From a virus: 43,010 nucleotides of DNA. This document shows, piece after piece, positions 7,937 through 27,067 of the stretch (its first letter is position 1; each line of letters begins with the position of its first letter). The notes below the pieces were generated by a model. The model had not been told where the DNA came from, did no database searches, and saw nothing but the letters and a program-made list of their open reading frames with translations. The DNA is taken from IMG/VR virus record IMGVR_UViG_3300025668_000018, positions 1 through 43,010 of that record; one strand, given 5' to 3'. The position numbers and the translations under genes are program-made.

Positions 7937-10900
7937 ATGGATATCAATAAGGTTTCACACGTCTCCTCGTATCAAACTCCTCAGTTTATAGAGAGTGAGT
8001 ATCCCCTATTCAATAAATTTATTGAATACTATTATCAGTCCCAAGAAAAGACTGGATTGGGTCAAAATATCGTTAATAATTTTCTTCAATATCTTAATAT
8101 TGATAAGTTAGATATTAGTATTCTTGATGGTGCTACTAGAGTTGTTGAGCCTGTTGGTGTAAGTGATACAACAATTACTGTTGAGACTGTAGACCCCTTT
8201 CTTGAGAAAGATGGTTCTGTTTTAATTGGCGACGAAGTAATTTATTATGAGGAGACTGTATCTTCTCCAAACATTGCATTAACTCCTGGTATTTCTTATA
8301 CTCAGGTTCAACTTAAGTGGGTTCTACTTGCCAACAATATTAGTCTCTTTGACGGTACAAGAACTGTCTTCCCTTTAGTTTCTCAAGATAATCCTATTGG
8401 ACCCTCTTCACCACAACACCTCATTGTTAAAGTTTACGGAAGAACCTTAACTCCAGTAGTAGATTATAACATTAGTGGAACTAATATTGTCTATACAACT
8501 GCCCCTAGAGTGGCGACAGCTTCTGATGATATTAGTACTACTAGCGTTACATATTTAAATGGTTTCAGTGAGAATACCATTGTACAAGTTGATGATATTT
8601 CCAGTGCTTTTGGTGACAATAAAACTAGTTTTGAACTGACTGTCAATAATCAGAAGTATGAACCTATTGCAGATGAGTTCTTACTTGCTGTTTATGATAA
8701 TAGACTACTTGTTCCTAAGGTAGATTATTTTACTGATGGATCTATCTTTGTATTCAATGTACCACCATTGAATGGTAGATCTCTGTCTTTATATTCCATC
8801 GAAGCACCTATCCCATCTTTTGGTTCTGGTGCTGTTGGATATGCTAGAGTAAATGATTTTGGAAATATCAGTTCTGTAATCCCAAGTGCAAACGGTTCTG
8901 GGTATAGATTCGATTATCCTCCTAAGGTTAGTGTAAATTCTAGTGTAGGTTCTGGTGCTTCTGTAAAGACTCTAGTAGATGGAATTAAGTCAGTTTCGTT
9001 ACTTAGTGGTGGTGCTGGATATAGTGAAAGTAATCCTCCCACTGTAAAAGTTCAATTTCCTACAAAAGAAGGATATGTAGAACCAACTTTAAAAGCAACG
9101 GTAACTAACGGGGCAGTTAGTGCTATTGACATCGTTAGTTCGGGTAGTGGATACACATTTACTCCTAGAATCACTTTTGAACAACCTGGAGGCGCTATCC
9201 TTGCCACTCCAACTATTGTTAATGGATCAGTTAGTGGTGCTATTACTATTACTAGTGGTGGTCAAGGATATACCACTCCTCCTTTGGTATACATTGATGA
9301 ACCTACAGGAGTTGATGGTATTAAAGCATCATTTACAACTACCTTGACAGATGGTGAAATTACTACTGTTAATATTCTAAATGCTGGTCAGGGTTATGAA
9401 ACAGTCCCTAGAATTTCTGTTATTGATCCTGTTGGAGCACAAGTTCTTGAAACTAAAGTTGACGGAGATGGCAGAGTTATTTCTGTTGAACTTTTGTTTG
9501 GTGGCAACGGATATACCGATGTCCCATCTGTTTATATCGTAGATAATCGTCAGAATGATGTTGGTACTTATATTGGAGGAACAGGTGCTACTGCAGTAGC
9601 AGCAATTTTCAATGGACAAATTACTGATATTAATATCACCAACTTTGGTACTGGATATAGTGCAGATAATCCTCCTCAAATTGTAATTCAAAAACCTGTT
9701 GATGCTAAGGCATCTGCAACAGTTGGTTTGCAGGAAATTACAGGTTTTTCTGTTCTTAAATCAGGAAAAGAATATACTAAAGCACAATTCCTTGGTTGTG
9801 CCAGAGCTGCTTCGGGTATTACTAATTATACACAAGATGGCAATGCAGTATTCTCTAATAACACTGTAGCAGCAGCGGCACCTACTGATGCGTCTGTAAA
9901 GTGTCTGGATGCATTGTTTGTTAAGAGACTGCTTGATAAGTATACAGAACAGTTCTTACCTGATGTTCCTACACTAGATTATAGCAAGATTGATGTTCGT
10001 ACATCGATCAAGACTATTAAAGACTTCTATTCTGCAAAGGGCACATCTTTCAGTATTGCATATTTGTTTAAACTTCTTTATGGAGAAACTGTAACAGTTT
10101 CATATCCTAAAGACCAAATTATCAAACCTTCTGCAGCAACCTGGTCTGTTGATACTGTTTTACGTGCAACATTAGTTAGTGGTCTTCCAGAAAATATTCA
10201 AGATGGTCTTCTATGTCAAGTTGCTGATATCTCAGATCCAAATATTTTAGCAGCAACAGCATTGATTGAAAATTTCATTTCAATTCAAACTGCCCAAGAT
10301 ACAATCTATGAACTTGCACTTTCAGAAGAAACAATTCAAGGGACATTTATAGTTCCATACAAAACAAAACTTGCTGAACCTCTTAATACTACAGAAGGTA
10401 TCATCACTGTTGACTCTACTATTGGATGGCCAGAAAGAAACGGCGAATTTGTAATTTCCACTGGTGTTGGTTCTGAAGTTGTTCAGTATAAAGAAAAATC
10501 ACTAAACCAGTTTATTGAGTGTACTCGTTCTGTTAACGGTGTTGTAGAAGATTGGGACTCTGCTACTCAGGTATCGTCCAACTTTAACGTATTCATCAAT
10601 AAAGGGACTGCTCAAGAAGTAGTGTTGAATATTGTTGGTATTGTTGATGCTCAACAAACAACACTCACCGATACTGGTTCTTATTACTTACCAGGTGATA
10701 AACTACTAATCTCCAAACTAGGTGGTACTGGAACAGGTCCAGAACTTACAACTTGGTTGTATAATGTTAAAAAGTTGATCGAAGTTGGGACAATCACTTT
10801 TGGTGGAATCAATAATCAATCTGCTACTGTAACTTGTAACAATCCTCATGGTCTACTAGTTGGAGATCAAGTTACAATTTATGGTGCAAATCCAATCATC

Positions 10901-13900
10901 TATAACGGATCTTTCCTTGTAACTTCTAGAGATAGTACTACTGTATTCCAGTATCAACTTCCTCAACCTGCAAATGTAGTTCCTCAAGGAAATATTCTTG
11001 TCTCTATTGACTTGAACAAAGGTAAGTCGGATAGTTCTGCAGTTAATAATGCAATCAGTCCTTACACAACGAATGTTCAGAATACATTCTTCAATACTAC
11101 AAACACTTATATTGCGTCTACAGGTATTCCAAACTATAATATTGGTCCTTTCCCTGGATCTGCATTATTACCTGGCAACCAACGTAAATTAAATAGATTC
11201 CCAATCAATCCTGTTACAATCTCAACCAAAAATTTGATTGTACCTGGTCCTATCGGAACTTGGGTTAATGGTGTCTCTATTTGGTCTTATAAGTCTGATG
11301 TCACTAAAATCTTTGGTGCTGTAACGTCAGTTGATATCACTAATGCAGGAAGCGGATATGATGCTGCATTCCCACCAGCAATTACGATTAGTGGTGGTGA
11401 AGGAACTGGAGCAGCAGCAAGTGCGACTGTTAACGGTTCTATCAGTGAGGTTACAGTAACTGCAGGCGGTTCTGGGTACACTTCTTCTCCATTGGTATCT
11501 ATTGTTGGTGGAGGCGGTTCTGGAGCGTCAGCAACAGCAATTATCACAAAGGGTGTAGTTTCTAGTATTCTTGTTAACTCTGGAGGAACTGGATATACAT
11601 CACAACCATCTATTACTGTTGTTGGTGGTGGGGGATCTGGTGCTGAGGGTACTGCAGCGGTTAGAGGACCAATTCAATCAGTCACTATCACTAATGGTGG
11701 GTCATCTTATACATCTAATCCTAGTATCATTCTTAGTTCTGGTACTGGTGCTGTTGCACAGGCAATTGTTAATGATGGACGTATTATTTCAATCGCTATC
11801 ATTTCGGCAGGTTCTGGATATACTACAGCACCAGAGGTAACTATCCAAGGAGAGGGTTTTGGTGCTGTTGCTAGAGCAACTATTGATGTTGATGGTGAAA
11901 ATGCTGGTAAAGTTACTGGAATTGAAATTATTAACAGAGGTATTGGATATAGTCAAGGTACGACTATTATCAATTTAAACTCTGTTGGTCAAGGTGCTAC
12001 TTTTGCAGCAAATGTATTCCAATGGACTTATAACTTACAAGAGACGACAACCGTTGATGCTGCTAAGGGATCTGTATTTGAGGGATTCAATAATCAGTAT
12101 GGTGGAGAATATGCACACCTTTCTAATCCTCAACGACTTAGATATATTTTAGGTGATAACCTATTTGTCAATGTAAGTGGACAAATTCTTGAACAGGATG
12201 ATCAATTAGCACACTCTCCTATTATTGGTTGGGCATTTGATGGCAATCCAATTTATGGTCCTTATGGATATTCAGATCCTACCAATCAGTCTTCTTCAAT
12301 CGCTAGATTGGGAACTTCTTATCGATTAAAGACAAATTTAGTTTATGATGTGATTACAAATCCAAATCCTGTTAGAACTGCTGGACCTCTTTTAACAGAT
12401 GAGATTGCAGGTAAGTTTGTAGAAGATTATGAGTATTCTTTCAGTTTAGGTGACCTTGACCAATACAATGGTAGATTCTGTAAGACTCCAGAGTATCCTA
12501 ACGGTAGATATTGCTACTTTGTAACTATTGATGCTACAGAAGCAGGCAATCCTGTATTCCCATATATTCTTGGACCAAGTTTTAACTCGGTTGTTGATGT
12601 CTGGAATCTTTCTACGAGTGCTGTTCAGCAAAATATTCCTATTGGTGTTGTTCGTTATCGCGATCCTTATGAAAATGTAGATATTGACGTTGAAAGGGCA
12701 CCAAATGCATCTACTAATGGATTGACATTGGAAAATGGCGATCTTCTAACTTTTGATGTAGAAGATGAAAATAGAGATGGTGTTATTAGTGCAGAAGAAA
12801 CTGCAGATCCAGATCAAATCTTTGAAGAGTCTCCATTACAACTATTCGATTACTTCCCGAAAGTAAAACTAGACTCCAAGGTTGATATTGAAGTTGAAAC
12901 TATCACTAAATTTGAGGATGCTTCAATTACAGGATTTGTTGTTGAAAATTCTGGTATTAACTATCAGGTAGATGATAGACTAATCTTTGATAATACAGAT
13001 ACTGGTGGTGATGGTGCTTCTGCACGAATTTCTAGAATTAAAGGTGAAACAGTTTCTGGGTATACATTTGAAAATGTTAGTGGTGAGAATTTTGGTGTAC
13101 TAACTACCAATGTCCCACATAATCTACAGCTTGATGATTCTGTTTTTGTAGATTATACTCCTATAATGGATAATACAAATAAAACATTTGTAGTCCGTCA
13201 ATATAAGGGTATTGAAGATATTGTAATTACACAATCTGGTTCTGGATACAATGAAGATATCCCTCCCACTCTTGTTATTGATGGAGATGGTATTTCTGGT
13301 GACCTTCAAGCAATTGTTACTAGTGTTGGATCAATTGATACCGTAAATATTCTTAATTCTGGTTCTGGATACACTTCTAATCCTAGAGTTATCATTAGCC
13401 ATCCTCAGGTATTCAAAAAAGCAGAATATATTGTTTCTAAAATAGAAAACAATGAAAATGTAAAAGTCAATGACATATTTGTAAACGAAAGTAAGGAAAT
13501 CTTTATCTGTGGTAAAACTTTAGACTCTAGTGGTAATGTTGTTGCATTTGTTTCTAAACTTTCCACAACAGGTGTCAAAGAGTGGGAAAAAACATTAGAA
13601 CTTACTTCTGGAACTAATTATGCAGAGTTCCAAAAACTCTATGTTGATGGTGATGATATCTGGGTAGTTGGTGTCAACCGACCAAATATCTTGGTTTTGG
13701 ATGCATATAATCCAGATATCATTTTGGTAAAATATACACAATCTTCTAATGGATTGAGTGCGACTCTTCAGTTCCAAAAAGGATATTCGGGAATCTCTGG
13801 TTCTACTAGAGCTGATAATGTCACATGTATCAAAAAATATTCAGATACTCGATATGTAATCGGAGGATATACTAATACTAACTCAGGAAGTCCTTTTGAT

Positions 13901-16900
13901 GCATTTATTGCCTTAATTGACACTGCTGGTAGTTTTGCAATTAAGAGAAAAATTGCTTCTGTAGATGATTCAGAAAAACTTACCGATATTGTTGTAGATG
14001 ACGGTAATATCTACTTCACTTTAGAAACTTCTAATACAAGCAGCGATAATAATGTTAATGTTGCATTTGGTAAAGCAATTGTAGGAACCAATGCCATTGA
14101 GGTTGAATACATTAATGAGTACAGCAATGCTGGATATTCATTCTTAGATAGTAGTCTTGCCATTGATGAATTTAAAGAACTTTATATCACTTCCACACTT
14201 AGAGCGAAGAGTGATAATGTCACTAGAGATAGTGTATGGGTTGGTAAAGTTAATACTGCTGGTAGTTTTGTTTGGAATTATAGATACCTTGCTCCAGGTA
14301 GGGATGTGAATGCTGTAGGTAAATGTGCCGTTGATATCTTCGGTGATTTAAACATTGCATTTAACAGAGTAGATAATACTACTGGTCTTAAAACTGTAGA
14401 TACTGTTAAGATTGGATATGATGGTGTAGTTAAAAATCATACAACTAATGAGTTCAATGAAAACAGAATCGAGGGTATTACAGCACATTCTATCGATGTA
14501 GATAACTCTGGTGATGTATATGTCTTTGGTCAGACTTCGTGGAACAGAAATGAATTCTTACTTGAGTTTACTGGTGGTGCCACTACAGATACTTTTGGCA
14601 ACTACACCCCAACGTTTGTTGGTGCTGATGCAACACAATCACTACATTTAGATGGTGGAGTTGCAAAAATTTATGGTAGAGATATTGCAACCCCTGCTAA
14701 TTGGGAAAATGCATACATTGAATTCCCTAACAACACCTTAGGCAATACACTCAATGAAAACTGGACTTTAGAGTTCATGTTATACCAAGATTCTGCTTCG
14801 ACTGATACTCATAGTCAAGATCAGCAAACTTTAGTTGCTATTGGCGATGCTACCGATGCAACTGGTGGTCTCTGGTTATATTATGATCGTACTGCTGCAG
14901 GTCCATCAGGATATTTGGAGTTGGTTGTAACTAACAACACCACATCCATCAATTCTGCTGGAGGTGCTGTACAGTCCACTCTGACTACGATGTTTGCTGA
15001 TGATACTTGGCAATTTATTGGATTAAAGAAAGAAGGTAATGTATTTACGGTTTATGTAAATGGTATTAGTGTTATTACTGCTACTGTTGCTGATACATCG
15101 TTCACATCTAAGAAACTTTATATTGGTAACATTGCTGGCAGGAATGGTACAACTGGAAATTGGAGAAAGGATGAGCAAGGTCAGTATTTTGTAGATAATC
15201 TTAAACTGAGAAATCGTGCTATTAATCCTACGGTTCCTTCTGATGTATCTGTTCTACCTACTAATGGTGCATTTGGTTTAAGTTATAGTTGGACTGATAC
15301 AGCATGGTTCAGCACATACAATAATGTGCATGATTACATTGATTATTCTGGTTGGGGTGTAAAAGTTGATAAAGATGCTGACTCTGCAAGAATTGGCGAT
15401 CAAGGTATTCAACTAGTTACTCAACTTGGATATGTTCGTACTGCAGTTACTCCTGTAACAGGTAGCACTTTAACTATTGGTAGCACAGGATTTGCTCTAG
15501 GTTCTTTAGGTCTTCAATCTTTAGACTTTGATGATGCAACAACTGTAATGACTCAGGATACTGAGACACTAACATACACTAAAGATATTTGGAGTTCTAG
15601 AACTGCCACAATTCCTTCTCCTGGATCACAAAAACTGATTATTAGCGCGGTTGTCAAGGATAGGTATTACTTCAAAGTTACTAATACTGTTAAAATTGAC
15701 AATGTTCAAATTTTAACCGTTAATCAGGCATTTAGATTTACTGTCGGCACAAAATTAGTTTTGAATGACGATAGTGGAAGTTTTGTCAATAGCGGATATA
15801 TCACAAAAGTTGATACTGATAATAATAAAGTATATTTGGCAGTTAATAACAATTCCTGGACTGATGACTTAAACACAGGTCAACTTTCTACAACTCAATT
15901 TAGTGAGCAGTCTACATACGGTATTGTTGGACCAATTCCTCTTGATATCAATCAAATTGATTCATATACATTTGCTCAGGTAGATAACACCACTCCTGGC
16001 ACCTTCACCATCGATCTTGACAAGTATAACTTAGATGGTACTTATAATGCAGCGGGTGGTCAAAATCTTGATTCCTTTGCTAAGTTCAAACCATATTCTG
16101 ATGATGATTATGCGGTTAGAATCGATGAAATTTCAGGTTCTTCTACATTCATCGTAGGATCGGTAGTCACTATAAATGGTGGAGATATTAGTTATAATGC
16201 AGCATATAGCACAGCGACTATTACTAATCTCACTGGTGTTCTTAAGATTACATTAGTTGCTAATCTAACAAAGATTCTTAGAGTTACTGCTGTAGCAAAT
16301 AGTGATGAAGTTTATGTCATTACTGACACTAGGCACTATCTAACTCCTGGATCTATGCTGAACGTAGATGGGAATCCATCAGAAACTGTTAATACAGTTG
16401 TTTATGATGAATATGATGGTTCTTTCCCTGTAGATACTGTAATCAGTCCTTTAGAATTTACATACAAACTTCCACAGGCAGCAGTTACAAGTCCTGCTAG
16501 TAGTTCTGGTAATGTTAGTATCTATGTTAAGTCTCCTGTCCTGAAGATGTATTATGGTCACCAGTATTTGTTTGACCTCAGTCATTCTTCGATGCTTGGT
16601 GGTAATTTATCCTTCTCGAAAGATCCTCTTTACAAACTTGAGTATTCATTCAACTCCATCGAAAGAGTTGGAACTCCTGGAGTAACTGGTCAAGGTGCCA
16701 CTACACCTACCGTTAAGTTCAAAGTTGATGAAGGTATTGTAACAAATATCTCATACTACTTCGATCCTTCTAGGGTTGGTGATAACGATTCACCCATCAT
16801 TCAAGGTAGTTATCTTGATGTTGTTACCTCTCCATATAAAGGAACATTCCAAGTTAGTGGTGTTGCTGGTGCAACTATTACTAGAGGGGCAGATCAGATT

Positions 16901-19900
16901 AAATTCCCTCTAATCAATGAACCAGAAGGGAATGCTGATGTTTCTAGAGCGTCATATTCAACTAGTTCCAGAAGGGCAGTTGGTTCGATCGATAGTATTC
17001 GTATTGTTAATCCTGGCGGATTCTACACAAGACTTCCTATTGTTGATAGCATTCAATCCACAAGACAGATTGAAAGAGTTAGTATCACTGAACCTGGTAC
17101 TGAATATGCTGTAGGACAGTATACAGGTGTTGCTATTGCTGGTGATGGCGAAGGTGGTTTCGTTACTATTACAGTTGCCGATGGAACTGATTCTGAGGGT
17201 AGTCCAATTCCTGGACAAGTTCAGAGTGTCCTCGTCACATCACCAGGAAAAGGATATACCACAGCAACCGTTGATATCGATTCTGTACCAGGCATTCTTG
17301 GCGCTGGTTTGACTGGTTCTGGTGCTGAAGTCACAGTAGTTATCCCCCCATTTGGAACAGCAGCATCTATCTTTACGGTAGGTTCAAGTGTCGGTAAGAT
17401 TAAAAAACTGAAGAATAATAACTTTGGTTATGATTATCCTCATGACTATACATTACGTCCTGAAATCACATTCCCAATTAATGCACAGTTAACATCTACT
17501 AGTATTTTGGATAGTGTTACAATCACTGATCCTGGTTCTGGTTATTCTCAGGCACCTGCAGTTATCATTACTGGTGGTGGCGGTACTGGTGCTATTGCCC
17601 AATCCACTATTAAGAATGGTCGTTTGGATAGAATTGAAGTCAAGGATCCTGGTCTTGGGTATTCTTCTACACCAAGTGTAGAATTAAAATCTTCGTTTAA
17701 TTACGTTGTTAACCTAGATTTGGGACTTTTGCAGTTCTCCTTCCCACATGGTATTGCACAAGGTTCTGAAATCACTCTCAACGTAGTAGATACTGGTGAT
17801 GGTGCTGATTTCCCAATCGCTGCTGGCGCTGTTGGTAGATTGAATGGTCTTACTACTTATTATGCAATTTCAGGAGCAGCAAATTCTCTTGAAGATGACC
17901 AATTAAAATTTGCAATCACTCCAGCAAACGCAGCACTTGGAGATGCATTATCGTTTACTAATGCTGGTACAGGTCGTCAACAAGTTCTTACAACATCGTT
18001 TGGTGGTGCAGCAACAGCAAATGTTATTACATCAACTTTCCTTGAGGGTGAGCAAGTGTATCAAGGCAGTTCTTTTGAAAATGCTACTGCACTTGGATTT
18101 GTCTCCACAAATAATGGTTGGCAAGTTGGACCTAGAATTGTAAAAATCGTCGATTACACTGGAGACTTTAACATTGGGGAAAGTATAACAGGTGTTATCT
18201 CCAAATCTTCTGGTACTATTAGTTCTTTGAATATCGCTACAGGTGTTCTTGATGTTGGATCTATCACAGAAACCTCAGGTCAGTTTATTGATGATGTTGG
18301 TAAACCCTCGGAGATTATCCAAAAGATTCAAGACTCCTATTATTATCAGGACTTCTCTTATGCAGTTAAGTCTGCTGTTTCAATTAATGAATGGAAAGAT
18401 ATTCTTATTAAGAATGTTCACCCTGCATCATTCAAAGTTTTTGGTGAACTCAATCTAAATGAATATGGATTTGTTCCTAATAAAGAAACATTCTTCCAGT
18501 TAACAAAATCTGTTGAACTTGCAAGACAAGCAACTGTACCAAACATTCAAAGTTTTGCTTTGGTTGAACCTGTATACAGTGCGTTTGATAATACAGAGGT
18601 ACTATTCCGTCAGAAGCGATTGACTTCTTCGGAGAACATCCTAACATCAGTTGTTCAAAGACTTGATGATATTTCAAATCTATTTGATGGTGAGAGAATT
18701 TCATTCCCACTACAAATTGATGGATCGAACGTTGTCGCCAACGCAAATCAATTGATGATTATTTTGAATGGTGTTGTACAAACTCCAGATACATCATTTG
18801 AAGTTCAAAACGATTCTATTGTTTTCTCAGAACCACCTCAACCTCCTGCTAGTGTTAAGTATGTAAATGTTACTATTCAACCAATTCAGGTCTATAAGTT
18901 TACAATTACTAATAATAGTGGTATTTTCCCAAGCACAAATAACACAGTTTTAGGAACACAATCTGGATCAAGACTTACTGTTACTAGTGTTGTTGGTGAT
19001 GATATTTTTGGTTTCGTTGCAGAAGGTAATGTTGGTATTGTTACCGCACTTAACAATGCTACATTAACTTCTGGTGCTGGTTATACTGATGGAACTTATT
19101 CAGATGTTGCTACTACTTCTAGTGGAGTTGGTACGGGACTTACTGTTAATATCACTGTCGCTTCTGGTGCTGTAACTCAAGCAAGTATCAATAGTGTTGG
19201 CGTTGGATATGCTTCTTCTGAAGTTATTACAATCACAGGTGGTACTACATCAGCAACTATTGCAGTCAGTACTGTTAGTGGATTTAATATTAACGAACTG
19301 ATAAGTGTTGGTGCAACTGGATTTACAGCAACTCTCACAGAAATTACTCCAATAGTTAACCTCAATCTGTTTAGTTTCAATGAGCAGATTAAAAACTTAA
19401 CTGGCAAAATTGCTGTAGTTGAAGAGGTCAACCTAGAAACAGGAGATTCTGTTCCTCTTGCCGATTTAAGATATACTATTGGTGCAGGAACGAGTACTGT
19501 TGAGGTTATCGACTCTGCTGCATTGACAGATACTGCAGTTCCAGCAAGCGTCTTTAGTGTAGATGCCAACTACCAGTTAGGAGCAGAGATTGTTACAGTG
19601 TCTGCTATTACAGTTGGACCTAATTCAACTACACTGACTGTATTGAGGGGTCAGTTGGGAACGACTGCTACTTCTCACCAAGAGGATCTGCCTTTGTATG
19701 GTACTGACATTAGTATTACTAATGAGTTGGCATTGAGTAAGACTGTAGGTACATATCAATCAAAACCTGGACTATTTGATATTCGACTTGATGATGTCAT
19801 TATTGGTTCTCAATCAGGTGTTGTTGCTAGAATTACCTCAACATCTGCATATCAAGATCCTACTACAAACGAATTCATCGAACAGGTTAATATTTCTGAT

Positions 19901-22900
19901 GGATCGTCTTTCTTCGGTCTACTATTCAACAGATTGACATCTGCTTCATATCCTAATGTTATTCTTGATAATATTTCTGAGTCTCAAGTAAATATTGTTG
20001 ATTTTACTGATAACACTACGAACTTTGATGCTAAATTCCCTGGAACTGAGTTTATTAGTAATTTAGTTATTCCTTATGACAATGCTACAGGCACATTCCA
20101 AGAAAACGAAATCATTCGTAACTACAAACTTGGATATGGTAATGTAACAGGGGTCTTCAATTCTTCCGAGAATATGATTACCAAAAAACTTGCTTTTGAT
20201 AGTAGAGTCGGGTCTGGATTCTTCCAACTTGGACAAGTCATTAGAACTCAAGATACTAAAGGTGAGGTTATTGGATACAATCAAGCACTTTCCACAATCT
20301 ATCTGGGTAAAGTAGGTAGAACTCTTTCTACTGGCGAAGATTACCATCAGGTTACTTTTGCGAACAATGCTCAATTAGATACAGATCAAAGTCATTATGG
20401 ATTAAGTTCTTTGCTACTTGATGGCACTGGAGATTATCTGTCTATCCCGACTTCTGCTGAATTTGGTTTTGGTGCAGGTGCATTCACAATCGAATGCTGG
20501 ATTCGTCCTTCTAGTGTTACAGGAACACAGCAAATCTTCGATTTTAGGACGACTGCTGTCGAAGTTTCTTCCGAACTACTACTTGTAGGCACAAATCTTA
20601 ATTATAGAGTTAATAATTCCACTACAATTACTGGAACAGCAACTCTTGCCGTAGATACTTGGTATCATGTTGCTATCTCAAGAAATGCTGCCACAACAAA
20701 GTTATTTGTTAATGGAACACAGGATGGTGGAGATTATTCTGATGGTAGTAACTATGGAAGCACTAAACCAATCATCATAGGTGCCTCCTATGCCTTTGGA
20801 GACGGTTTCGCTGGTCATATCGATGAGTTCAGAGTATCTAACACTTCGCGCTATCAGACGACATTTACTGCCCCTACAGGAATCTTCCAGGGTGATGCTA
20901 ATACTAAGTTACTGCTTCACTTCGAGGGTGCTGATACTCAAACATATGTTGAGGATTGGTCTGGTGGAGAGTCGTTTACAGACAACGAAGACTTCAACAA
21001 CGATGCCATTCTTAAGAACTGGAATGAAAATTCCACAAATCTTCCTGCTGGATTCGCAGGTAAGTCACAACGATATTATGATGCTGCTAACTTAATCGAA
21101 TCCAACAAAGACTTTGTTGCTAAAGAAGCAGTTTACTTACTGACTCAGCAGTATCCATCACTTGTAATTCCTGGTGGTAACGTAAATTGCGAAGATGATG
21201 TTCGCGATATCCTAACTGCTTTGATTGAGGATATGCGTAATGGATGTAATAGTCATATCTGGGATGCTTCGGCATTGTATGTTAATAGAACTGTTAATCC
21301 TATTACAATTAGTCATGTTGATACGGAAGTTGTAGAAACTGTCTGGGCTTATGATAAAGTCAAAGATATTCTTCAATATATCATCAATAATACTCTTTGG
21401 TCTGTTTCTGGCAGTCATGGCGTAAGACAAATCACTGATACCACAATTACTGATTCTTCTACAGGATCCTTTACCACAATTCAACCATCAGCAATTTCTT
21501 ATAATGCTGCTACTGGTGATATGGTCATGACATCGAACAGTCATGGATTAACGACAGCAAATACAATCGCTATTGCTGCAGAGTCACTGACATTCACATG
21601 CACGAGTGATGGTAATGAAAGAGAATTGATTCATCCTCGTAAGAGTGATACTAGAGCATATAATCAAGTTCTTGCAATCACTGCAGCAGATACTAATACA
21701 TTTACAGTAAATGTTGGTGCATCTCCAGCAGAGCAACAATATGTTCATACATTTGTAAGTGCAACTTCTAATGCTGTCACAGTCCTTGATTACACTACAG
21801 GTGATTGTGCCGATGTCTATTCCACGATTGGCAATCTCTTAGATATCCTTACGGATACACTTGAGCAAGCAAATCTGGGCAGTCCTGTAGACCACTTAGC
21901 AACTATCACTAAAGTAACTACTAATTATGAGTTCGTTGGTGCTACTGTTAATGCATATCTTGAAGTTCCGTTTAGCACCACATATCACAGTGCTGCTTCG
22001 GATATCTTATATACCAATAGAATTGACACTTCTGCTCGTGGAAGATTCCGTGATGCTTCAAATCTTATCAATGCAAACGCTTCGGTTATTGTTGATAAAG
22101 CAGCATTTGATATGCTTTCTAGATATCCAGATCTTGCTATTGACATGCCTAGAAACGCCGCTGGCGGTAGCACTGACGGAACTCTTCGTTGTAAGACTGA
22201 CTTAGGTTTAATCTTAGGAGCAATCGCGAAAGATATCTATGATGGAGGAAACTTCTTTACTGTCCAAGCTGCTAGGTTCTATATTGGTGAAAATGACGAA
22301 CTCAGACATATCCGTTTGCAAGTATGGCAGTCTGTATATGCTCATGATAGACTTGCATACTATGCTAAGCAAGCAGTTACGGGTGATCTGACATACGATA
22401 ACACCGACAATATTATCGTTGGTGACTGGGGTATTACTAATGACGCAGGAAACTGTGCAAATGTTCAATCTGCTATCGATACATTAGTTACTACCATCAA
22501 TGATATTATCGCTCCAACTAGCGAAGACTTCAATATTGCTGGCGATAGACTATACTTCAACCGCGAATATATTGCCGAAGAAATTACAGGTCTTACTGCA
22601 GCATATTTGACATATCAAGTTGATAACGCAAATCAAGTAGCGTATACATACGACACTGCTAAGTGTGAGCGTGATATTAAGTTACTGATTACTGCAATTA
22701 TCTCCGACCTACAGACAGGTGGTAATAATAGTACAGTTGATAACATGGGTCTGTACCTAACTGCTAACGGAGAACTGAATTATGTAGAAGAAGAACTTCT
22801 TCCTACAGTATTTGCATTCGAGCAGATTAGAACTCTTGGAGAAAAGGCAATCAGAAATCTCCTGTATGATGCAGGTGCAACTGTATCTGGTCAGCAATAT

Positions 22901-25900
22901 TCTGCTATTTACAGTGATAATACTGCATATAGAGATAGCGAAACTCCAACCGATATCGACCAAGCAGTTTGGAGACTTCGTGACCTAATTGATATTGTCA
23001 TTAATGGTCTCGCACCTGCAGGCAATGGAGTTAGAAATGCTGCCAAGAACTTCTACTTCAACCTCAAGTATTATAAGGATGAAATTGGAGCACAGATTGA
23101 TAGTCAGTTTGGTTCTGGTTCTTGGGTATATGATTCATTCCTTGAAGAAACTGCAAATAATATTGCAGCAGATAGTATCACAACAGATGTAAGTGCCTCA
23201 AATACCACTGTTGCTTATGAAATATCACTTTCTGGCATCATTGGAGACTTTGTAGCAGGAGAAACAGTAACATCCAGCAATGGTAGTACTGCGACTGTGC
23301 TTGAGTTTGATAAAGATAATCAGACAATTTATGTGGGACCCTTCTCATCCACTGCTTGGGCGGTTACTAATACTCTATCGGGTGGAAGTAGTTCAGCAAC
23401 AGCAACTATTGCTGCAGCATATGGATCTGTAGCATTTGATGGAACTGGTGACTATCTACAGACTGCTGCTGGTATTGCACTTGGAACTGGCAACTTTACC
23501 CTTGAGGGATGGATTCGTCGTACTGATACAAACAGCAACTTCTATCTATCTGGATCAACTGATAATAACTTCGGGTTCTTTGTAGGAACAGGTTCTTCTA
23601 ATGTCGGTTTCTACGGTGGAAGTAGTGGTAACTTTATTAATCTAACTAACACCACACTTACTGTTTCTGGGGGTAGATGGTATCACATTGCTGTTGTGAG
23701 AGAAGGAGTTGGTGCTAACCAAACTTCAATCTATATTGATGGTATTCTGCAAGGTAGTGGAACTGTTGCAACTAACTATGGTTCTACCACATTCGTTGTA
23801 GGTGCTAGTACATCTAGTACAGAATATGCAAATGGAAACATTTCTGATTGGAGATTGTCCAGCGTTGCTGTTTATCCAAAAGGAAGTACAGCAATTGGAG
23901 AAAAACTCTTTGCACTTCCTACACGACCATTTATTGCAGCAGACGTTACTGAAACCGAACTTATCTTGTGTCAAGGTAATACGATTCAAGATAATGGACC
24001 TAATAGTGTCTCAGTAACTGCTAACGGAAATGCTGCTGCTACTACAACTTCTCCCTTTGGATATTTCCCTGGTGTTTCCAACTCCTTTGATTGGTATATC
24101 TATCCTACCAATGTTGAGATTCTTTCTCAAGCAAGAGCAATTAGTTCTCCAGTCACAGGAGAAGTTAGTAGCGCAAATCTCTGGACTAATCCAGAAAATC
24201 TAAATTCGTCAAATTACACTTCTAACTTAGTTAATTATTTCTCTAATGTTACAAGTGCTCCTGATGGAACAGAAACTGCTGAAAAACTTTATGCTACAGG
24301 CACTGGAGTACATTCACTAACTAGAGATTTTAATCTAACTTCATATGAAACCTTTGACAATTCAACTGTAACATTTGATAGTGGTACTGAAACATTCGAT
24401 ACTGGATTTGGTGGTATTACTGAGCAGCAGACATTTACTCTGTCGGCATTCTTCAAGAAAGCAGAACTCGATAGTCTCAACTTCAAACTTTCTTTGGATA
24501 ATCAGTCGAAGAATATTAACTTCAATGTCAACCTTTCCACAGGTCAAGTTGATACAGGAACATTGTTTGTAAGTCCTGGTATTACTCTTAACGAGTATGG
24601 GGTAACACCAGTTGGTGGTGATTGGTTCCGTGTATACTCAACAATTACCTTCGGTTTTGGTATTGATAATCTTCAAAGTGACTTTGCTATCTACAATCGT
24701 TCATCTGTTGCTGCTTCTGGAAATCAAGGTTTCTATCTCTGGGGTATTAAACTCAACGCTGGTTTCCTTGATCCTTATACTGCTGGGTCTGGTAAGTTGT
24801 TCTATTCAAATACCGAATATAACATTAAGACATATGCGTTAGATCTTCTAAGAGAGTATATGGTTGCTTCAATTTCTAATGAACTTGTTGTTCCTTCCCC
24901 CATTGCTGCTGTAGGTTCTTTCTACCAGGATCCAACATCAGCAGCAGCTCTTGCTAATGGAAATTACAGCAATGAAAGCATCAGTAGATTGATTCGTTAT
25001 GGCACTAGCACAATTAAAAATCAGTTCATTAATGATGCATACTATACAAACCTCACTCAATATAATGCAGTAACTTTCGGTTCTAAAAACTACGGTGATA
25101 GAGATATTCCTGTAGGAATTACTGGAGGACTAAATTCTTCCGATTATTTCTATGGTCTGAGTTCCGATTCAAATGCCGAACTTGCAAATCTCACTATCAA
25201 TGAAGGTTTGATTGCTAAAGTTTACAGGAGATTCCGTATAGACGGCGATATTACTGATGGTCCATTCACCATGAATGAAGTTGTCGCTAAGCAGGGTGCT
25301 CCTAGTATTACTGGTGTAGTTTATGGATTCTATGAAGATGAGAACTTCAAGTATCTCGATGTCGAAGTTACTGCTGGTCCTTGGGCAGTTACAGACTTCA
25401 TTGTTGGAGCGGCAAACTCAACAACGGCACAAATCAGTGCAATCGAAGATCGTATTCACATTATCGATCTTAAAGGTGACTTTGTTCAGGATATTGAATT
25501 CCTTGGTTATACTTCTGGAGCAGTTGCTCAACCCACTTCATTCATCAAAGCAGAAGCATCCGTTACTTCTAATACTGGAGGTCTTCTGACAGTTGATACT
25601 GAGAGTTTGGTAGGCACTTTTGAGAAAAACTCGGTAGTCTATCCAGAATCGTCCAGACAGTATATTGATGTAAGTCAAATTTCTGGTCTTCAGGTATCGG
25701 TTGGTGATCGTATTGCATCTGATGGATATATCAGGTTGGGTGTCTCAGTCATCTCAACTTCTAATGTATTCATTGTTGGAAATAGGATTTATAAGGTTGT
25801 TAACAATCTTCAAGATAGCACCGTATATGGTGTTATCACCGAAGTAGATCTTGCTAACAATTACATCTACATCACAATGGTTCAAGGAGAATTCCAAAAT

Positions 25901-27067
25901 GGTGATTACATTGGAGATTATGGAGTCGATATTTTCCCTCAAGGATTCGCGACAATCAATACAAAGGTTGTTACTCCTGGAGCAGCCGCTGCTAGAGTTC
26001 AAGACATCAGAACAGCAGGATTGAGTAAGAGAATCTATCTTACAGATATTGCTGGAGCATTCTCTAGTAAAGATGCCATTATCGGAACTTCTGCATATAA
26101 GGCAGTTATCACCGATATTGTAGACCTTAAAGCTCGCGTGAAGAGATCCTCCAAAGGATTTGATGGTACACAAACTACCTTCTCTCTCACTATTGAAAAT
26201 GGAACTTCATATCTGCCCGACCCAGAGGGACATATGATGATTTTTGTCAACGGCATTCTTCAACCTCCTGGAGCAACTAACGCATATACAGCGTTCTCCG
26301 ACCAAATTCAATTCGCTGAGGCACCAGAACTTGGGTCCTCGTTTACTGGATTCTATATTGGTAAGTTGAGACAGTTGGATGATATCTCGTTTGAATTTGA
26401 TTCATTACGTCAGTCATTTAACCTCAAGCGTAACGAGGTATTCTACTCACTCACGCTGACAGAAGGTGTTCAATCTACTGTGATTAGACCTGAAAATAAT
26501 ATCATTGTTTCTCTCAATGGTGTTGTTCAGGAACCTGGAGTTGGTTTTGAGATTGTTGGTTCGCGAATCATCTTCTCTGAAATTCCTCGCGTAGATTCTA
26601 CATTCGTCGCGTTCTCTTATGTTGGTTCTGAAGCAGACGTTGATGCTGCTGAAGTAGTTCCACCAATCGAAACAGGAGATTTCATCGAAATTGAGGGTGA
26701 AACTGAGGATCGTGAGGTCGCGGTTATCGAATCGTCCAACTCACTCATCACCTTCGATTATCTTGGATCAGTCTTTGGTCAAGGTGCTATCGGACAATCT
26801 GCACTCACAAGTGGATTTATTAGTACTGTTCAGGTTACTTCTGGAGGTTCTGGTTATACAAGCAGACCTACAGTTAGAATCGATTCTATCTCTGGTTTCG
26901 ATGGTAACATCCGTGCATTGGTTGGTATTTCTAGTGTTGAATTGAATAGTTATGGTTCTGGATATCAGAATCCAGTTATCATTGTTGAGAGTGAAGTTCC
27001 TGATGATTGGACCGCACCAAATCTCGCAGATTATGGTGAGGAATTAATTGATCCAGAGATTGCATAA
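7937..27067 (+). CDS. Giant multidomain virion protein (6376 aa), baseplate/fibre-like
   Basis: A single unbroken 19.1-kb frame. The order by approximate residue is as follows. 1-60: conserved start (PLFNKFIEYYYQSQEKTG). 300-590: seven GGxGY repeats. 655-740: helical region (IKDFYSAKGTSFSIAYLFK). 1128-1352: six more GGxGY repeats. 1425-1550: YHYH-like domain (GWAFDGNPIYGPYGY, TPEYPNGRYCYF). 1610-1621: an EF-hand-like loop (DENRDGVISAEE). 1843-2211: seven propeller-like blades. 2215-2432, 4145-4340 and 5162-5378: three LamG-like domains. 3015-3250: more GGxGY repeats. 4380-5070: three helical repeats. 5412-5620: a carbohydrate-binding-like module. C-terminus: two LNGVxQ modules and two GGxGY repeats. 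Its position after gp6 is that of T4 gp7, but homology to gp7 is not shown. LamG-like and propeller folds suggest glycan binding on the host surface (inference). It shares the gp25-gp6 late transcript. Confidence 0.85.
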   Translation: MDINKVSHVSSYQTPQFIESEYPLFNKFIEYYYQSQEKTGLGQNIVNNFLQYLNIDKLDISILDGATRVVEPVGVSDTTITVETVDPFLEKDGSVLIGDEVIYYEETVSSPNIALTPGISYTQVQLKWVLLANNISLFDGTRTVFPLVSQDNPIGPSSPQHLIVKVYGRTLTPVVDYNISGTNIVYTTAPRVATASDDISTTSVTYLNGFSENTIVQVDDISSAFGDNKTSFELTVNNQKYEPIADEFLLAVYDNRLLVPKVDYFTDGSIFVFNVPPLNGRSLSLYSIEAPIPSFGSGAVGYARVNDFGNISSVIPSANGSGYRFDYPPKVSVNSSVGSGASVKTLVDGIKSVSLLSGGAGYSESNPPTVKVQFPTKEGYVEPTLKATVTNGAVSAIDIVSSGSGYTFTPRITFEQPGGAILATPTIVNGSVSGAITITSGGQGYTTPPLVYIDEPTGVDGIKASFTTTLTDGEITTVNILNAGQGYETVPRISVIDPVGAQVLETKVDGDGRVISVELLFGGNGYTDVPSVYIVDNRQNDVGTYIGGTGATAVAAIFNGQITDINITNFGTGYSADNPPQIVIQKPVDAKASATVGLQEITGFSVLKSGKEYTKAQFLGCARAASGITNYTQDGNAVFSNNTVAAAAPTDASVKCLDALFVKRLLDKYTEQFLPDVPTLDYSKIDVRTSIKTIKDFYSAKGTSFSIAYLFKLLYGETVTVSYPKDQIIKPSAATWSVDTVLRATLVSGLPENIQDGLLCQVADISDPNILAATALIENFISIQTAQDTIYELALSEETIQGTFIVPYKTKLAEPLNTTEGIITVDSTIGWPERNGEFVISTGVGSEVVQYKEKSLNQFIECTRSVNGVVEDWDSATQVSSNFNVFINKGTAQEVVLNIVGIVDAQQTTLTDTGSYYLPGDKLLISKLGGTGTGPELTTWLYNVKKLIEVGTITFGGINNQSATVTCNNPHGLLVGDQVTIYGANPIIYNGSFLVTSRDSTTVFQYQLPQPANVVPQGNILVSIDLNKGKSDSSAVNNAISPYTTNVQNTFFNTTNTYIASTGIPNYNIGPFPGSALLPGNQRKLNRFPINPVTISTKNLIVPGPIGTWVNGVSIWSYKSDVTKIFGAVTSVDITNAGSGYDAAFPPAITISGGEGTGAAASATVNGSISEVTVTAGGSGYTSSPLVSIVGGGGSGASATAIITKGVVSSILVNSGGTGYTSQPSITVVGGGGSGAEGTAAVRGPIQSVTITNGGSSYTSNPSIILSSGTGAVAQAIVNDGRIISIAIISAGSGYTTAPEVTIQGEGFGAVARATIDVDGENAGKVTGIEIINRGIGYSQGTTIINLNSVGQGATFAANVFQWTYNLQETTTVDAAKGSVFEGFNNQYGGEYAHLSNPQRLRYILGDNLFVNVSGQILEQDDQLAHSPIIGWAFDGNPIYGPYGYSDPTNQSSSIARLGTSYRLKTNLVYDVITNPNPVRTAGPLLTDEIAGKFVEDYEYSFSLGDLDQYNGRFCKTPEYPNGRYCYFVTIDATEAGNPVFPYILGPSFNSVVDVWNLSTSAVQQNIPIGVVRYRDPYENVDIDVERAPNASTNGLTLENGDLLTFDVEDENRDGVISAEETADPDQIFEESPLQLFDYFPKVKLDSKVDIEVETITKFEDASITGFVVENSGINYQVDDRLIFDNTDTGGDGASARISRIKGETVSGYTFENVSGENFGVLTTNVPHNLQLDDSVFVDYTPIMDNTNKTFVVRQYKGIEDIVITQSGSGYNEDIPPTLVIDGDGISGDLQAIVTSVGSIDTVNILNSGSGYTSNPRVIISHPQVFKKAEYIVSKIENNENVKVNDIFVNESKEIFICGKTLDSSGNVVAFVSKLSTTGVKEWEKTLELTSGTNYAEFQKLYVDGDDIWVVGVNRPNILVLDAYNPDIILVKYTQSSNGLSATLQFQKGYSGISGSTRADNVTCIKKYSDTRYVIGGYTNTNSGSPFDAFIALIDTAGSFAIKRKIASVDDSEKLTDIVVDDGNIYFTLETSNTSSDNNVNVAFGKAIVGTNAIEVEYINEYSNAGYSFLDSSLAIDEFKELYITSTLRAKSDNVTRDSVWVGKVNTAGSFVWNYRYLAPGRDVNAVGKCAVDIFGDLNIAFNRVDNTTGLKTVDTVKIGYDGVVKNHTTNEFNENRIEGITAHSIDVDNSGDVYVFGQTSWNRNEFLLEFTGGATTDTFGNYTPTFVGADATQSLHLDGGVAKIYGRDIATPANWENAYIEFPNNTLGNTLNENWTLEFMLYQDSASTDTHSQDQQTLVAIGDATDATGGLWLYYDRTAAGPSGYLELVVTNNTTSINSAGGAVQSTLTTMFADDTWQFIGLKKEGNVFTVYVNGISVITATVADTSFTSKKLYIGNIAGRNGTTGNWRKDEQGQYFVDNLKLRNRAINPTVPSDVSVLPTNGAFGLSYSWTDTAWFSTYNNVHDYIDYSGWGVKVDKDADSARIGDQGIQLVTQLGYVRTAVTPVTGSTLTIGSTGFALGSLGLQSLDFDDATTVMTQDTETLTYTKDIWSSRTATIPSPGSQKLIISAVVKDRYYFKVTNTVKIDNVQILTVNQAFRFTVGTKLVLNDDSGSFVNSGYITKVDTDNNKVYLAVNNNSWTDDLNTGQLSTTQFSEQSTYGIVGPIPLDINQIDSYTFAQVDNTTPGTFTIDLDKYNLDGTYNAAGGQNLDSFAKFKPYSDDDYAVRIDEISGSSTFIVGSVVTINGGDISYNAAYSTATITNLTGVLKITLVANLTKILRVTAVANSDEVYVITDTRHYLTPGSMLNVDGNPSETVNTVVYDEYDGSFPVDTVISPLEFTYKLPQAAVTSPASSSGNVSIYVKSPVLKMYYGHQYLFDLSHSSMLGGNLSFSKDPLYKLEYSFNSIERVGTPGVTGQGATTPTVKFKVDEGIVTNISYYFDPSRVGDNDSPIIQGSYLDVVTSPYKGTFQVSGVAGATITRGADQIKFPLINEPEGNADVSRASYSTSSRRAVGSIDSIRIVNPGGFYTRLPIVDSIQSTRQIERVSITEPGTEYAVGQYTGVAIAGDGEGGFVTITVADGTDSEGSPIPGQVQSVLVTSPGKGYTTATVDIDSVPGILGAGLTGSGAEVTVVIPPFGTAASIFTVGSSVGKIKKLKNNNFGYDYPHDYTLRPEITFPINAQLTSTSILDSVTITDPGSGYSQAPAVIITGGGGTGAIAQSTIKNGRLDRIEVKDPGLGYSSTPSVELKSSFNYVVNLDLGLLQFSFPHGIAQGSEITLNVVDTGDGADFPIAAGAVGRLNGLTTYYAISGAANSLEDDQLKFAITPANAALGDALSFTNAGTGRQQVLTTSFGGAATANVITSTFLEGEQVYQGSSFENATALGFVSTNNGWQVGPRIVKIVDYTGDFNIGESITGVISKSSGTISSLNIATGVLDVGSITETSGQFIDDVGKPSEIIQKIQDSYYYQDFSYAVKSAVSINEWKDILIKNVHPASFKVFGELNLNEYGFVPNKETFFQLTKSVELARQATVPNIQSFALVEPVYSAFDNTEVLFRQKRLTSSENILTSVVQRLDDISNLFDGERISFPLQIDGSNVVANANQLMIILNGVVQTPDTSFEVQNDSIVFSEPPQPPASVKYVNVTIQPIQVYKFTITNNSGIFPSTNNTVLGTQSGSRLTVTSVVGDDIFGFVAEGNVGIVTALNNATLTSGAGYTDGTYSDVATTSSGVGTGLTVNITVASGAVTQASINSVGVGYASSEVITITGGTTSATIAVSTVSGFNINELISVGATGFTATLTEITPIVNLNLFSFNEQIKNLTGKIAVVEEVNLETGDSVPLADLRYTIGAGTSTVEVIDSAALTDTAVPASVFSVDANYQLGAEIVTVSAITVGPNSTTLTVLRGQLGTTATSHQEDLPLYGTDISITNELALSKTVGTYQSKPGLFDIRLDDVIIGSQSGVVARITSTSAYQDPTTNEFIEQVNISDGSSFFGLLFNRLTSASYPNVILDNISESQVNIVDFTDNTTNFDAKFPGTEFISNLVIPYDNATGTFQENEIIRNYKLGYGNVTGVFNSSENMITKKLAFDSRVGSGFFQLGQVIRTQDTKGEVIGYNQALSTIYLGKVGRTLSTGEDYHQVTFANNAQLDTDQSHYGLSSLLLDGTGDYLSIPTSAEFGFGAGAFTIECWIRPSSVTGTQQIFDFRTTAVEVSSELLLVGTNLNYRVNNSTTITGTATLAVDTWYHVAISRNAATTKLFVNGTQDGGDYSDGSNYGSTKPIIIGASYAFGDGFAGHIDEFRVSNTSRYQTTFTAPTGIFQGDANTKLLLHFEGADTQTYVEDWSGGESFTDNEDFNNDAILKNWNENSTNLPAGFAGKSQRYYDAANLIESNKDFVAKEAVYLLTQQYPSLVIPGGNVNCEDDVRDILTALIEDMRNGCNSHIWDASALYVNRTVNPITISHVDTEVVETVWAYDKVKDILQYIINNTLWSVSGSHGVRQITDTTITDSSTGSFTTIQPSAISYNAATGDMVMTSNSHGLTTANTIAIAAESLTFTCTSDGNERELIHPRKSDTRAYNQVLAITAADTNTFTVNVGASPAEQQYVHTFVSATSNAVTVLDYTTGDCADVYSTIGNLLDILTDTLEQANLGSPVDHLATITKVTTNYEFVGATVNAYLEVPFSTTYHSAASDILYTNRIDTSARGRFRDASNLINANASVIVDKAAFDMLSRYPDLAIDMPRNAAGGSTDGTLRCKTDLGLILGAIAKDIYDGGNFFTVQAARFYIGENDELRHIRLQVWQSVYAHDRLAYYAKQAVTGDLTYDNTDNIIVGDWGITNDAGNCANVQSAIDTLVTTINDIIAPTSEDFNIAGDRLYFNREYIAEEITGLTAAYLTYQVDNANQVAYTYDTAKCERDIKLLITAIISDLQTGGNNSTVDNMGLYLTANGELNYVEEELLPTVFAFEQIRTLGEKAIRNLLYDAGATVSGQQYSAIYSDNTAYRDSETPTDIDQAVWRLRDLIDIVINGLAPAGNGVRNAAKNFYFNLKYYKDEIGAQIDSQFGSGSWVYDSFLEETANNIAADSITTDVSASNTTVAYEISLSGIIGDFVAGETVTSSNGSTATVLEFDKDNQTIYVGPFSSTAWAVTNTLSGGSSSATATIAAAYGSVAFDGTGDYLQTAAGIALGTGNFTLEGWIRRTDTNSNFYLSGSTDNNFGFFVGTGSSNVGFYGGSSGNFINLTNTTLTVSGGRWYHIAVVREGVGANQTSIYIDGILQGSGTVATNYGSTTFVVGASTSSTEYANGNISDWRLSSVAVYPKGSTAIGEKLFALPTRPFIAADVTETELILCQGNTIQDNGPNSVSVTANGNAAATTTSPFGYFPGVSNSFDWYIYPTNVEILSQARAISSPVTGEVSSANLWTNPENLNSSNYTSNLVNYFSNVTSAPDGTETAEKLYATGTGVHSLTRDFNLTSYETFDNSTVTFDSGTETFDTGFGGITEQQTFTLSAFFKKAELDSLNFKLSLDNQSKNINFNVNLSTGQVDTGTLFVSPGITLNEYGVTPVGGDWFRVYSTITFGFGIDNLQSDFAIYNRSSVAASGNQGFYLWGIKLNAGFLDPYTAGSGKLFYSNTEYNIKTYALDLLREYMVASISNELVVPSPIAAVGSFYQDPTSAAALANGNYSNESISRLIRYGTSTIKNQFINDAYYTNLTQYNAVTFGSKNYGDRDIPVGITGGLNSSDYFYGLSSDSNAELANLTINEGLIAKVYRRFRIDGDITDGPFTMNEVVAKQGAPSITGVVYGFYEDENFKYLDVEVTAGPWAVTDFIVGAANSTTAQISAIEDRIHIIDLKGDFVQDIEFLGYTSGAVAQPTSFIKAEASVTSNTGGLLTVDTESLVGTFEKNSVVYPESSRQYIDVSQISGLQVSVGDRIASDGYIRLGVSVISTSNVFIVGNRIYKVVNNLQDSTVYGVITEVDLANNYIYITMVQGEFQNGDYIGDYGVDIFPQGFATINTKVVTPGAAAARVQDIRTAGLSKRIYLTDIAGAFSSKDAIIGTSAYKAVITDIVDLKARVKRSSKGFDGTQTTFSLTIENGTSYLPDPEGHMMIFVNGILQPPGATNAYTAFSDQIQFAEAPELGSSFTGFYIGKLRQLDDISFEFDSLRQSFNLKRNEVFYSLTLTEGVQSTVIRPENNIIVSLNGVVQEPGVGFEIVGSRIIFSEIPRVDSTFVAFSYVGSEADVDAAEVVPPIETGDFIEIEGETEDREVAVIESSNSLITFDYLGSVFGQGAIGQSALTSGFISTVQVTSGGSGYTSRPTVRIDSISGFDGNIRALVGISSVELNSYGSGYQNPVIIVESEVPDDWTAPNLADYGEELIDPEIA
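8840..9705 (+). repeat. GGxGY protein-repeat block 1 in the giant gene
   Basis: Seven imperfect repeats of about 35-45 residues, each with a Gly-rich turn ending in GY (NGSGY, GGAGY, SGSGY, GGQGY, AGQGY, GGNGY, FGTGY), then a Pro, then short beta strands and a NGxI/V strand. The regular strand-turn spacing suggests a beta-solenoid or string of small beta units. The repeats are coding and diverged at the DNA level. Confidence 0.75.
11320..11990 (+). repeat. GGxGY protein-repeat block 2 in the giant gene
   Basis: Six repeats, the most regular of the gene. GGSGYTSSP and GGTGYTSQP lie 39 residues apart and the next GGSSYTS is 38 further on, with GGGGSGA turns midway between. The register shows a unit of about 38-39 residues. 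The same unit appears in the 853-, 510- (gp8) and 1405-residue proteins of this window. Confidence 0.78.
16980..17690 (+). repeat. GGxGY protein-repeat block 3 in the giant gene
   Basis: Five more diverged copies, recognisable by NPGGFY, EPGTEY, SPGKGY, DPGSGY and DPGLGY, again with a GGGGTGA turn between the last two. Here the two residues before the turn are usually a residue plus Pro, a sub-type distinct from the SGG/AGG copies of blocks 1 and 2. Confidence 0.68.
21073..23150 (+). repeat. Three tandem copies of a helical module in the giant gene
   Basis: Residues of about 4380-5070 contain three related units. Each has an 'LI-x-x-N-x-x-x-V/I' helix, then a Cys-x-x-Asp helix (NCEDDVRDIL, RCKTDLGLIL, KCERDIKLLI), an Asn/Gly-rich turn, an A/G-x-LY or RFY segment, then a V-x-A-x-(D/E) helix (VWAYDKVKD, VYAHDRLAY, VFAFEQIRT). 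The rest of the protein is mostly beta, so this is a helical island. It lies between the second and third LamG-like domains. Confidence 0.65.

Follow-up and report, generated by a model that had tools for sequence, protein, structure and literature searches.

The window, a 43,010-base IMG/VR virus record, contains at 7937-27067 a gene for a putative gp7-type giant virion protein of 6376 amino acids, which, like its domains and the neighbouring genes up to gp8 that are listed next, is encoded on the plus strand. As had been predicted, this gene directly follows that for gp6, its baseplate wedge partner (5899-7929; PF21379, E 1.9e-17). The original prediction also placed it before gp8, which was not confirmed: the next gene encodes a gp9/gp10-like protein (27090-28310; PF07880, E 8.7e-10), the one after it a 1405-amino-acid baseplate wedge protein with a YHYH domain (28314-32531; PF14240, E 7.5e-16, and synteny with SSM1_104), and the baseplate wedge gene gp8 (32571-34103; assigned by synteny and by a length as in S-SM1 gp8) comes third, as it does in phage S-SM1. 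A second giant frame, at 34103-41311 (2402 amino acids; 'VrlC protein' in S-SM1), had no NCBIfam match.

The frame of the giant gene runs from an ATG start to a TAA end with no internal stop and no ambiguous base (N), which bears out the claim that it is single and intact. In phage Syn33 there is a frame of identical length (19,131 nucleotides) that aligns without indels and with a DNA identity of 92.7%, and at least 80% of the giant gene is covered by each of 26 phage records, so a frame of this size is not due to chance; colinear copies, at about 92.7% DNA identity, are found in Syn33 and in S-RIM12 isolates. When the gene is compared with its Syn33 counterpart, third codon positions take most of the substitutions in every 400-codon block, and dN/dS is 0.06-0.19 across these blocks (dS was not computable in one of them). 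This purifying selection in all blocks indicates that the entire 6376-amino-acid frame is maintained as protein. A self-BLAST of the protein gave no internal repeats above threshold. Within the coding sequence, at 8007-8028, there is a palindrome of 22 bases that equal their own reverse complement.

A family of giant virion proteins

The giant gene belongs, as an unexceptional member, to a known family of giant virion proteins of marine cyanophages. The PHROG_701 profile spans the protein from end to end, with an E-value of 0 for both halves, and its orthologs Syn33_092 and S-SM1 SSM1_102 are full-length and show no essential difference from it; the sole annotation of these orthologs and of PHROG_701 is 'virion structural protein'. 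In S-SM1 the ortholog is labelled T4-GC969, which is among the 41 proteins detected with multiple peptides when purified S-SM1 virions were analyzed by mass spectrometry (Sullivan et al. 2010, PMC3037559). Virion membership has therefore been published for an ortholog, and the prediction of a virion protein is supported through S-SM1 rather than for the present phage.

The size of the protein had been regarded as unusual for a phage, and within cyanophages this view fails because of the lengths found in the same gene slot. In the cyanophage records read, the gp7 slot encodes about 3,000 to 8,573 amino acids: 3,007 in S-SSM7, 4,067 in SynMITS9220M01, 4,225 in ACG-2014f, 4,446 in P-HM1 (named gp7), 5,195 in P-SSM2 (named gp7), 6,076 in syn9, 6,180 in S-SM1, 6,198 in S-RIM14, 6,376 in Syn33, 6,619 in S-SZBM1, 6,818 in ACG-2014d, 7,124 in P-SSM7 and 8,573 in P-RSM6. 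The P-RSM6 gene (HQ634193.1 103907-129628) is thus still larger, at 25.7 kb; its product is annotated as 'hypothetical protein' and has seven phycobiliprotein-like repeat matches. The S-SSM7 entry is one of two genes, both labelled gp7, that share the gp7 material (L016 1562-20656) and are separated by a gp9/10-like gene, so that in this phage the giant is naturally split.

If the product were a polyprotein that is cut during assembly, the particle would contain no chain of 6376 residues. The S-SSM7 arrangement (3007 plus 3001 amino acids) lends some weight to this alternative, since it indicates that halves can work as separate chains, but most relatives encode the protein in one frame and purifying selection along it is even, so we regard proteolytic division as improbable.

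A gp7 core in three pieces and the modules between and after them

The giant protein is longer than T4 gp7 (1032 amino acids, NP_049765) by a factor of about 6.2, which confirms the roughly sixfold ratio first proposed. That it occupies the slot of gp7 is borne out, and taken further, by ordered matches to T4 gp7 of profiles built from cyanophage proteins and compact gp7s (E-values against T4 gp7 are those of a single-target search) and by a Pfam Baseplate_wedge match (PF23786, residues 683-728, E 1.4e-6). The first core piece is the helical N-terminus (residues 1-105, with the conserved core at 5-105; 7937-8251), whose profile detects the compact gp7s of pf16 (5e-24), phiN3 (2e-18) and DLP6 (1e-18); its match to T4 gp7 653-689, a helix, is not significant alone, but its position is in order. 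The second (residues 645-754; 9869-10198), which contains the motifs D-F-Y-S-x-K-G-T and F-K-L-L-Y-G-E, is found by profile (T4 gp7 724-758, E 1.7e-12), by PF23786 and by BLASTP, in which residues 696-722 align to T4 733-759 with 52% identity over 27 amino acids (E 7e-4). The third (residues 3443-3542; 18263-18562), with YQDFSY, W-K-D and V-H-P-A-S-F, has a profile match to T4 gp7 862-894 (E 1.5e-6), a weak BLASTP match of residues 3477-3499 to T4 gp7 866-888, and counterparts at pf16 358-456, phiN3 928-1004 and DLP6 453-533. Two of the three segments are consequently significant against T4 gp7, and all three are so against pf16, phiN3 and DLP6, whose gp7s occupy the same slot (523, 1006 and 1288 amino acids) and have most of their alignment to the giant near residues 645-805 and 3460-3545, that is, in the regions of core pieces. 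The proposal to compare residues 1-740 with T4 gp7 captured two of these pieces, and the third lies outside that interval.

The giant protein is thus well supported, by sequence comparison, as a T4 gp7 homolog whose conserved core appears to survive as three pieces. It shares with T4 gp7 the slot after gp6 and the order of these segments, and it differs in being six times longer, in having the core split by intervals of about 540 and about 2,690 residues (the latter about 210 in pf16), in a C-terminal extension of about 2,830 residues after the third piece, and in its additional lectin-like, spike and phycobiliprotein-like domains. The same core pieces are present in the same slot in the giant 'gp7' proteins of P-SSM2 (5195 amino acids) and P-HM1 (4446 amino acids), but their module content differs from that of the giant, and the P-SSM2 protein is without phycobiliprotein-like repeats. 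Structure prediction by segments had also been suggested, and its outcome was divided: the model of residues 4366-5010 matches phycobiliproteins, and a model of residues 1-760 alone has an AlphaFold pLDDT below 50 for core pieces 1 and 2 and did not list gp7 in a fold search. Such low confidence might be expected if the core needs gp6, so the split-core reading rests on sequence.

Could an unrelated giant fibre merely have replaced gp7? Older annotations of orthologs, which are 'putative fiber' (in syn9) or 'structural protein' rather than gp7, would fit such a replacement. Because profiles match T4 gp7 and the compact gp7s of the same slot significantly and in order, it is the least probable of the alternatives that we considered.

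Several kinds of domain were confirmed along the chain, in agreement with the predicted multi-domain composition. Residues 214-295 (8576-8821) form a beta domain with the N-terminal anchor fold of fibres and tailspikes, for which VIA-align scores are modest (Z 8.7 to CBA120 TSP4, and 5-7 to the T7 gp17 N-terminus, HRP29, Kp9, N4 and the KP1 baseplate). It is followed by a repetitive beta region of G-Y/G-G-x-G-Y units (residues 350-600; 8984-9736), modelled by AlphaFold with a pLDDT of about 75-93 over most of its length, for which a fold search returned weak Ig-like matches only and no clear known fold. A YHYH domain (residues 1363-1534; 12023-12538; PF14240, E 2.3e-31) lies between core pieces 2 and 3, and a domain of this type is also present in the 1405-amino-acid wedge gene at 28314-32531. 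Beyond core piece 3 are a LamG/concanavalin-A-like domain (residues 4162-4305; 20420-20851), a second LamG-like domain at about residues 5157-5319 (23405-23893), which cross-matches the first LamG region of P-SSM7, and a spike-fibre domain (residues 5481-5609; 24377-24763; NCBIfam NF048003, E 2.6e-9, above cut-off); the two LamG-like domains correspond to the two stretches of a PF13385 match with E 1.2e-37 for the protein. The anchor-fold, YHYH, LamG and spike-fibre modules would suit contact with the host surface, and the lectin-like LamG, T7-gp17-type anchor and spike-fibre domains make likely a multi-domain adsorption appendage, as had been anticipated in the form of a very long or multi-receptor one.

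The explanation that we favor, with a probability of roughly 0.8, is that the giant is the baseplate wedge protein gp7 of a T4-like marine cyanophage, with a split core and with adsorption modules in its loops and C-terminus. The three core pieces should then meet next to gp6 and anchor the chain in the baseplate, whereas the long loops between pieces and the C-terminal part of about 2,830 residues would be filled with adsorption modules (the fibre-anchor fold, beta repeats, YHYH, LamG, the spike-fibre domain and three phycobiliprotein-fold repeats), and the loops may project as arms that touch the host. By analogy with T4, six copies of the giant gp7 would be expected per particle.

Phycobiliprotein-like repeats

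Residues 4375-4975 contain three repeats with the predicted fold of phycobiliproteins, pigment-binding proteins with which cyanobacteria harvest light, which the earlier reading missed and which are not in the annotation. Repeat 1 (residues 4375-4490; 21059-21406) includes Cys4418 and has a Pfam Phycobilisome match near residue 4374 that is just below threshold (PF00502, 21.9 bits against a cut-off of 22.2). It is interrupted in the AlphaFold model by an inserted beta domain (residues 4520-4610), after which comes the last helix with Cys4624 in G-D-C-A-D-V (21494-21871 for insertion and helix). Repeat 2 (residues 4703-4862; 22043-22522), with Cys4752 and Cys4840, has the complete fold according to VIA-align, and repeat 3 (residues 4868-4975; 22538-22861) includes Cys4910 in C-E-R-D. 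Among phages, the number of repeat matches per genome varies from 1 to 16. The annotated tail fiber protein gene of S-SKS1 contains a phycobiliprotein-like repeat (NC_020851.1 17250-17801).

Sequence profiles and predicted models both relate these repeats to phycobiliproteins. Residues 4340-4990 searched against the PDB as a single sequence gave 14 hits, mostly to phycobiliproteins or the phycobiliprotein-derived smURFP and in two different parts of the segment. When a profile was made from repeats of many phages, in whose 32-repeat alignment Asn10 and Cys38 are the invariant columns, all 60 listed PDB hits, the best of them at E 3.5e-7, were phycobiliproteins or proteins closely derived from these. 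A narrower profile, for repeat 2 (A6), was rejected as too uniform; at E about 0.05 it found mostly phycobiliproteins plus MogR and left helix H unaligned by sequence. Modelled by AlphaFold with a mean pLDDT of 74, residues 4366-5010 retrieved only phycobiliproteins in the top 50 rows of a Foldseek search (probability 1.00, E about 0.01), and VIA-align gave Z up to 18.6 and still 16.2 at rank 50, against a baseline, for helical models that have no clear match, of about 14 for the top hit and 6 for rank 50. In this predicted model repeat 2 superimposes on the beta subunits of phycoerythrin or phycocyanin over 140-144 residues at 2.0-2.2 A and has the globin-like fold through helix H; judged by their ranges, several of the best superpositions have their first aligned phycobiliprotein residue at about 27-33, so that the N-terminal X-Y helix hairpin used in alpha-beta pairing is only a possible feature of the repeats.

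Middling fold scores come easily to helical bundles, and a mean pLDDT of 74 with Foldseek E-values of merely about 0.01 could reflect convergence on such a bundle rather than descent. This is very improbable, because the sequence profile by itself places phycobiliproteins in all 60 listed positions with the bilin Cys aligned, PF00502 and NCBIfam apcB both turn up independently, and the superposition reaches Z about 18 and 2 A over 140 residues. Common ancestry and a common fold with phycobiliproteins are thus shown by profile comparison and in predicted models. The repeats resemble phycocyanin, phycoerythrin and allophycocyanin (PF00502) in the globin-like fold of ~140 residues, the bilin-attachment Cys and the Asp that follows it, and they differ in standing in tandem inside a virion protein, in the usual loss of the pocket Arg and in the beta domain inserted in one of them. 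No report of phycobiliprotein domains in phage virions was found in the open-licence literature, and as far as that search shows such repeats had not been described in virions.

Candidate bilin sites, a CpeT-like lyase and a possible link to light-dependent adsorption

Cys38 of the repeat profile falls on the chromophore Cys of the alpha subunits of phycocyanin and phycoerythrin. Of 94 repeats, 76 have this bilin-attachment Cys, the Asp at +3 from it is present in 80 of 95, and both residues of the alpha84/beta82 site are present in all three repeats of the window. Tyr replaces the Cys in some repeats, and the equivalent of Cys4910 of repeat 3 is missing in some relatives. The pocket Arg at +2 (C-x-R-D) is found in only 26 of 95 repeats and, within the window, only in repeat 3, so the repeats are best described as derived from and folded like phycobiliproteins rather than as working phycobiliproteins. 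In alignment A2, Cys4752 is at least 90% conserved and Cys4840 invariant. Cys4840 and Cys4624, the latter conserved to at least 90%, represent a second, strongly conserved Cys with which the last helix starts. Helix H ends 19 residues after Cys4840, which we take to be at the position of phycocyanin beta Cys153 and phycoerythrin beta Cys158 if helix H aligns without gaps. On the same condition, Cys4624 and Cys4840 would be at the site of a T-type lyase, the lyase type assigned to Cys153 (PMC10452541).

Cyanophages encode such a T-type phycobiliprotein lyase, CpeT, as a separate gene that is not a part of the giant. In the literature the role and target of cyanophage cpeT in infection are called unresolved, and the role of pebS/pcyA a mystery (PMC3037559). 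Thirty complete phage genomes were scanned with the repeat profile and with a profile of seven phage CpeT-like proteins, Pfam CpeT alone having missed divergent phage copies. Repeats and a CpeT-like gene were both found in 17 genomes, which thus include every repeat-bearing isolate of the set, neither was found in 13, and none had one alone. Seven of the 17 supplied the sequences of the CpeT profile and so match it by construction, which is not the case for the other ten. The 13 negative genomes are those of the cyanophages P-SSM2, S-SSM7, S-SM2, SynMITS9220M01, S-SRM01, S-B05, MA01 and P-TIM68, the pelagiphage HTVC008M and four phages of other hosts. In S-PM2, Syn1, S-RSM4 and ACG-2014j the CpeT-like gene is 0.3-1.5 kb upstream of a repeat-rich fibre gene of 3.8-4.2 thousand amino acids, and coordinates suggest the same neighbourhood in S-RIM44, S-RIM32, S-CAM1, S-CAM3, S-H9-1 and Sf-CH1a. 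The CpeT-like match of P-SSM7 (GU071103.1 13413-13838) has one in-frame TAA.

A prediction made in advance, that Syn1 would be without repeats since CpeT is absent from its entry in a table of 2010, failed: Syn1 has repeats plus a CpeT gene, by profile and in agreement with its GenBank annotation. In a 31st genome, the 181-kb record L317, one repeat was found but CpeT was not detected. The trait is phylogenetically clumped, and on a terminase tree it changes three times, one of them on well-supported (starred) branches; with only three changes, co-occurrence with the lyase may reflect shared descent, and the co-distribution is a strong lead that falls short of statistical proof. The terminase gene gp17 of S-ShM2 (NC_015281.1 108576-110220) is in two overlapping frames (364 and 192 amino acids) and is a single frame in the near-twin S-RIM14, so the split is a frameshift or a sequencing error. 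Pattern and terminase scans for further complete cyanophage genomes returned almost only fragments, and the bilin reductase family gave no pattern that matched the repeats.

These data bear on two views of the repeats. One, to which we give even odds, holds that they are captured host domains that serve as pigment-free helical spacers or as protein- or glycan-binding modules of the adsorption arm. The frequent loss of the pocket Arg, the occasional Tyr in place of Cys, a repeat number that varies among genomes as that of spacer or receptor modules would, and the repeat without CpeT in L317 agree with such a role; on the other side, the Cys and the Asp at +3 are among the most conserved columns, helix H still starts with the second Cys, and a lyase of the CpeT type follows the distribution of the repeats and, in S-PM2-like phages, is encoded beside the fibre gene. 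The other, which we propose as a hypothesis that is possible although less probable, is that repeat cysteines receive a bilin through the action of the CpeT-like lyase that the phage encodes.

Some cyanophage strains do not adsorb in the dark (PMC7238727), and this is so for P-HM2 (PMC7112961), whose gp7 carries repeats. In addition, the S-PM2 giant proteins 088 (3338 amino acids) and 218 (3779 amino acids), both of them repeat-bearing, were mutated during long coexistence with the host (PMC9910659). It is conceivable, if unlikely, that a bilin chromophore bears on the light-dependent adsorption of repeat-bearing phages. The fuller proposal, that virions carry pigmented adsorption modules on the giant gp7 arm and on S-PM2-like tail fibres, loaded with bilin by the phage CpeT-like lyase, and that these help to explain the restriction of adsorption to the light in several of these phages, is speculative to a similar degree.

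The split-core reading would give a gp7 identity to what had been a 'virion structural protein' with no known role, and would show that a baseplate wedge protein can expand as much as eightfold when its loops take up modules. If bilin attachment proves true, phage-encoded bilin genes would gain a target and the virion a light-absorbing group. Repeats that retain the bilin Cys, are part of adsorption proteins and track a lyase gene offer a concrete and cheap test for questions about cpeT, pebS/pcyA and the relation of light to adsorption.
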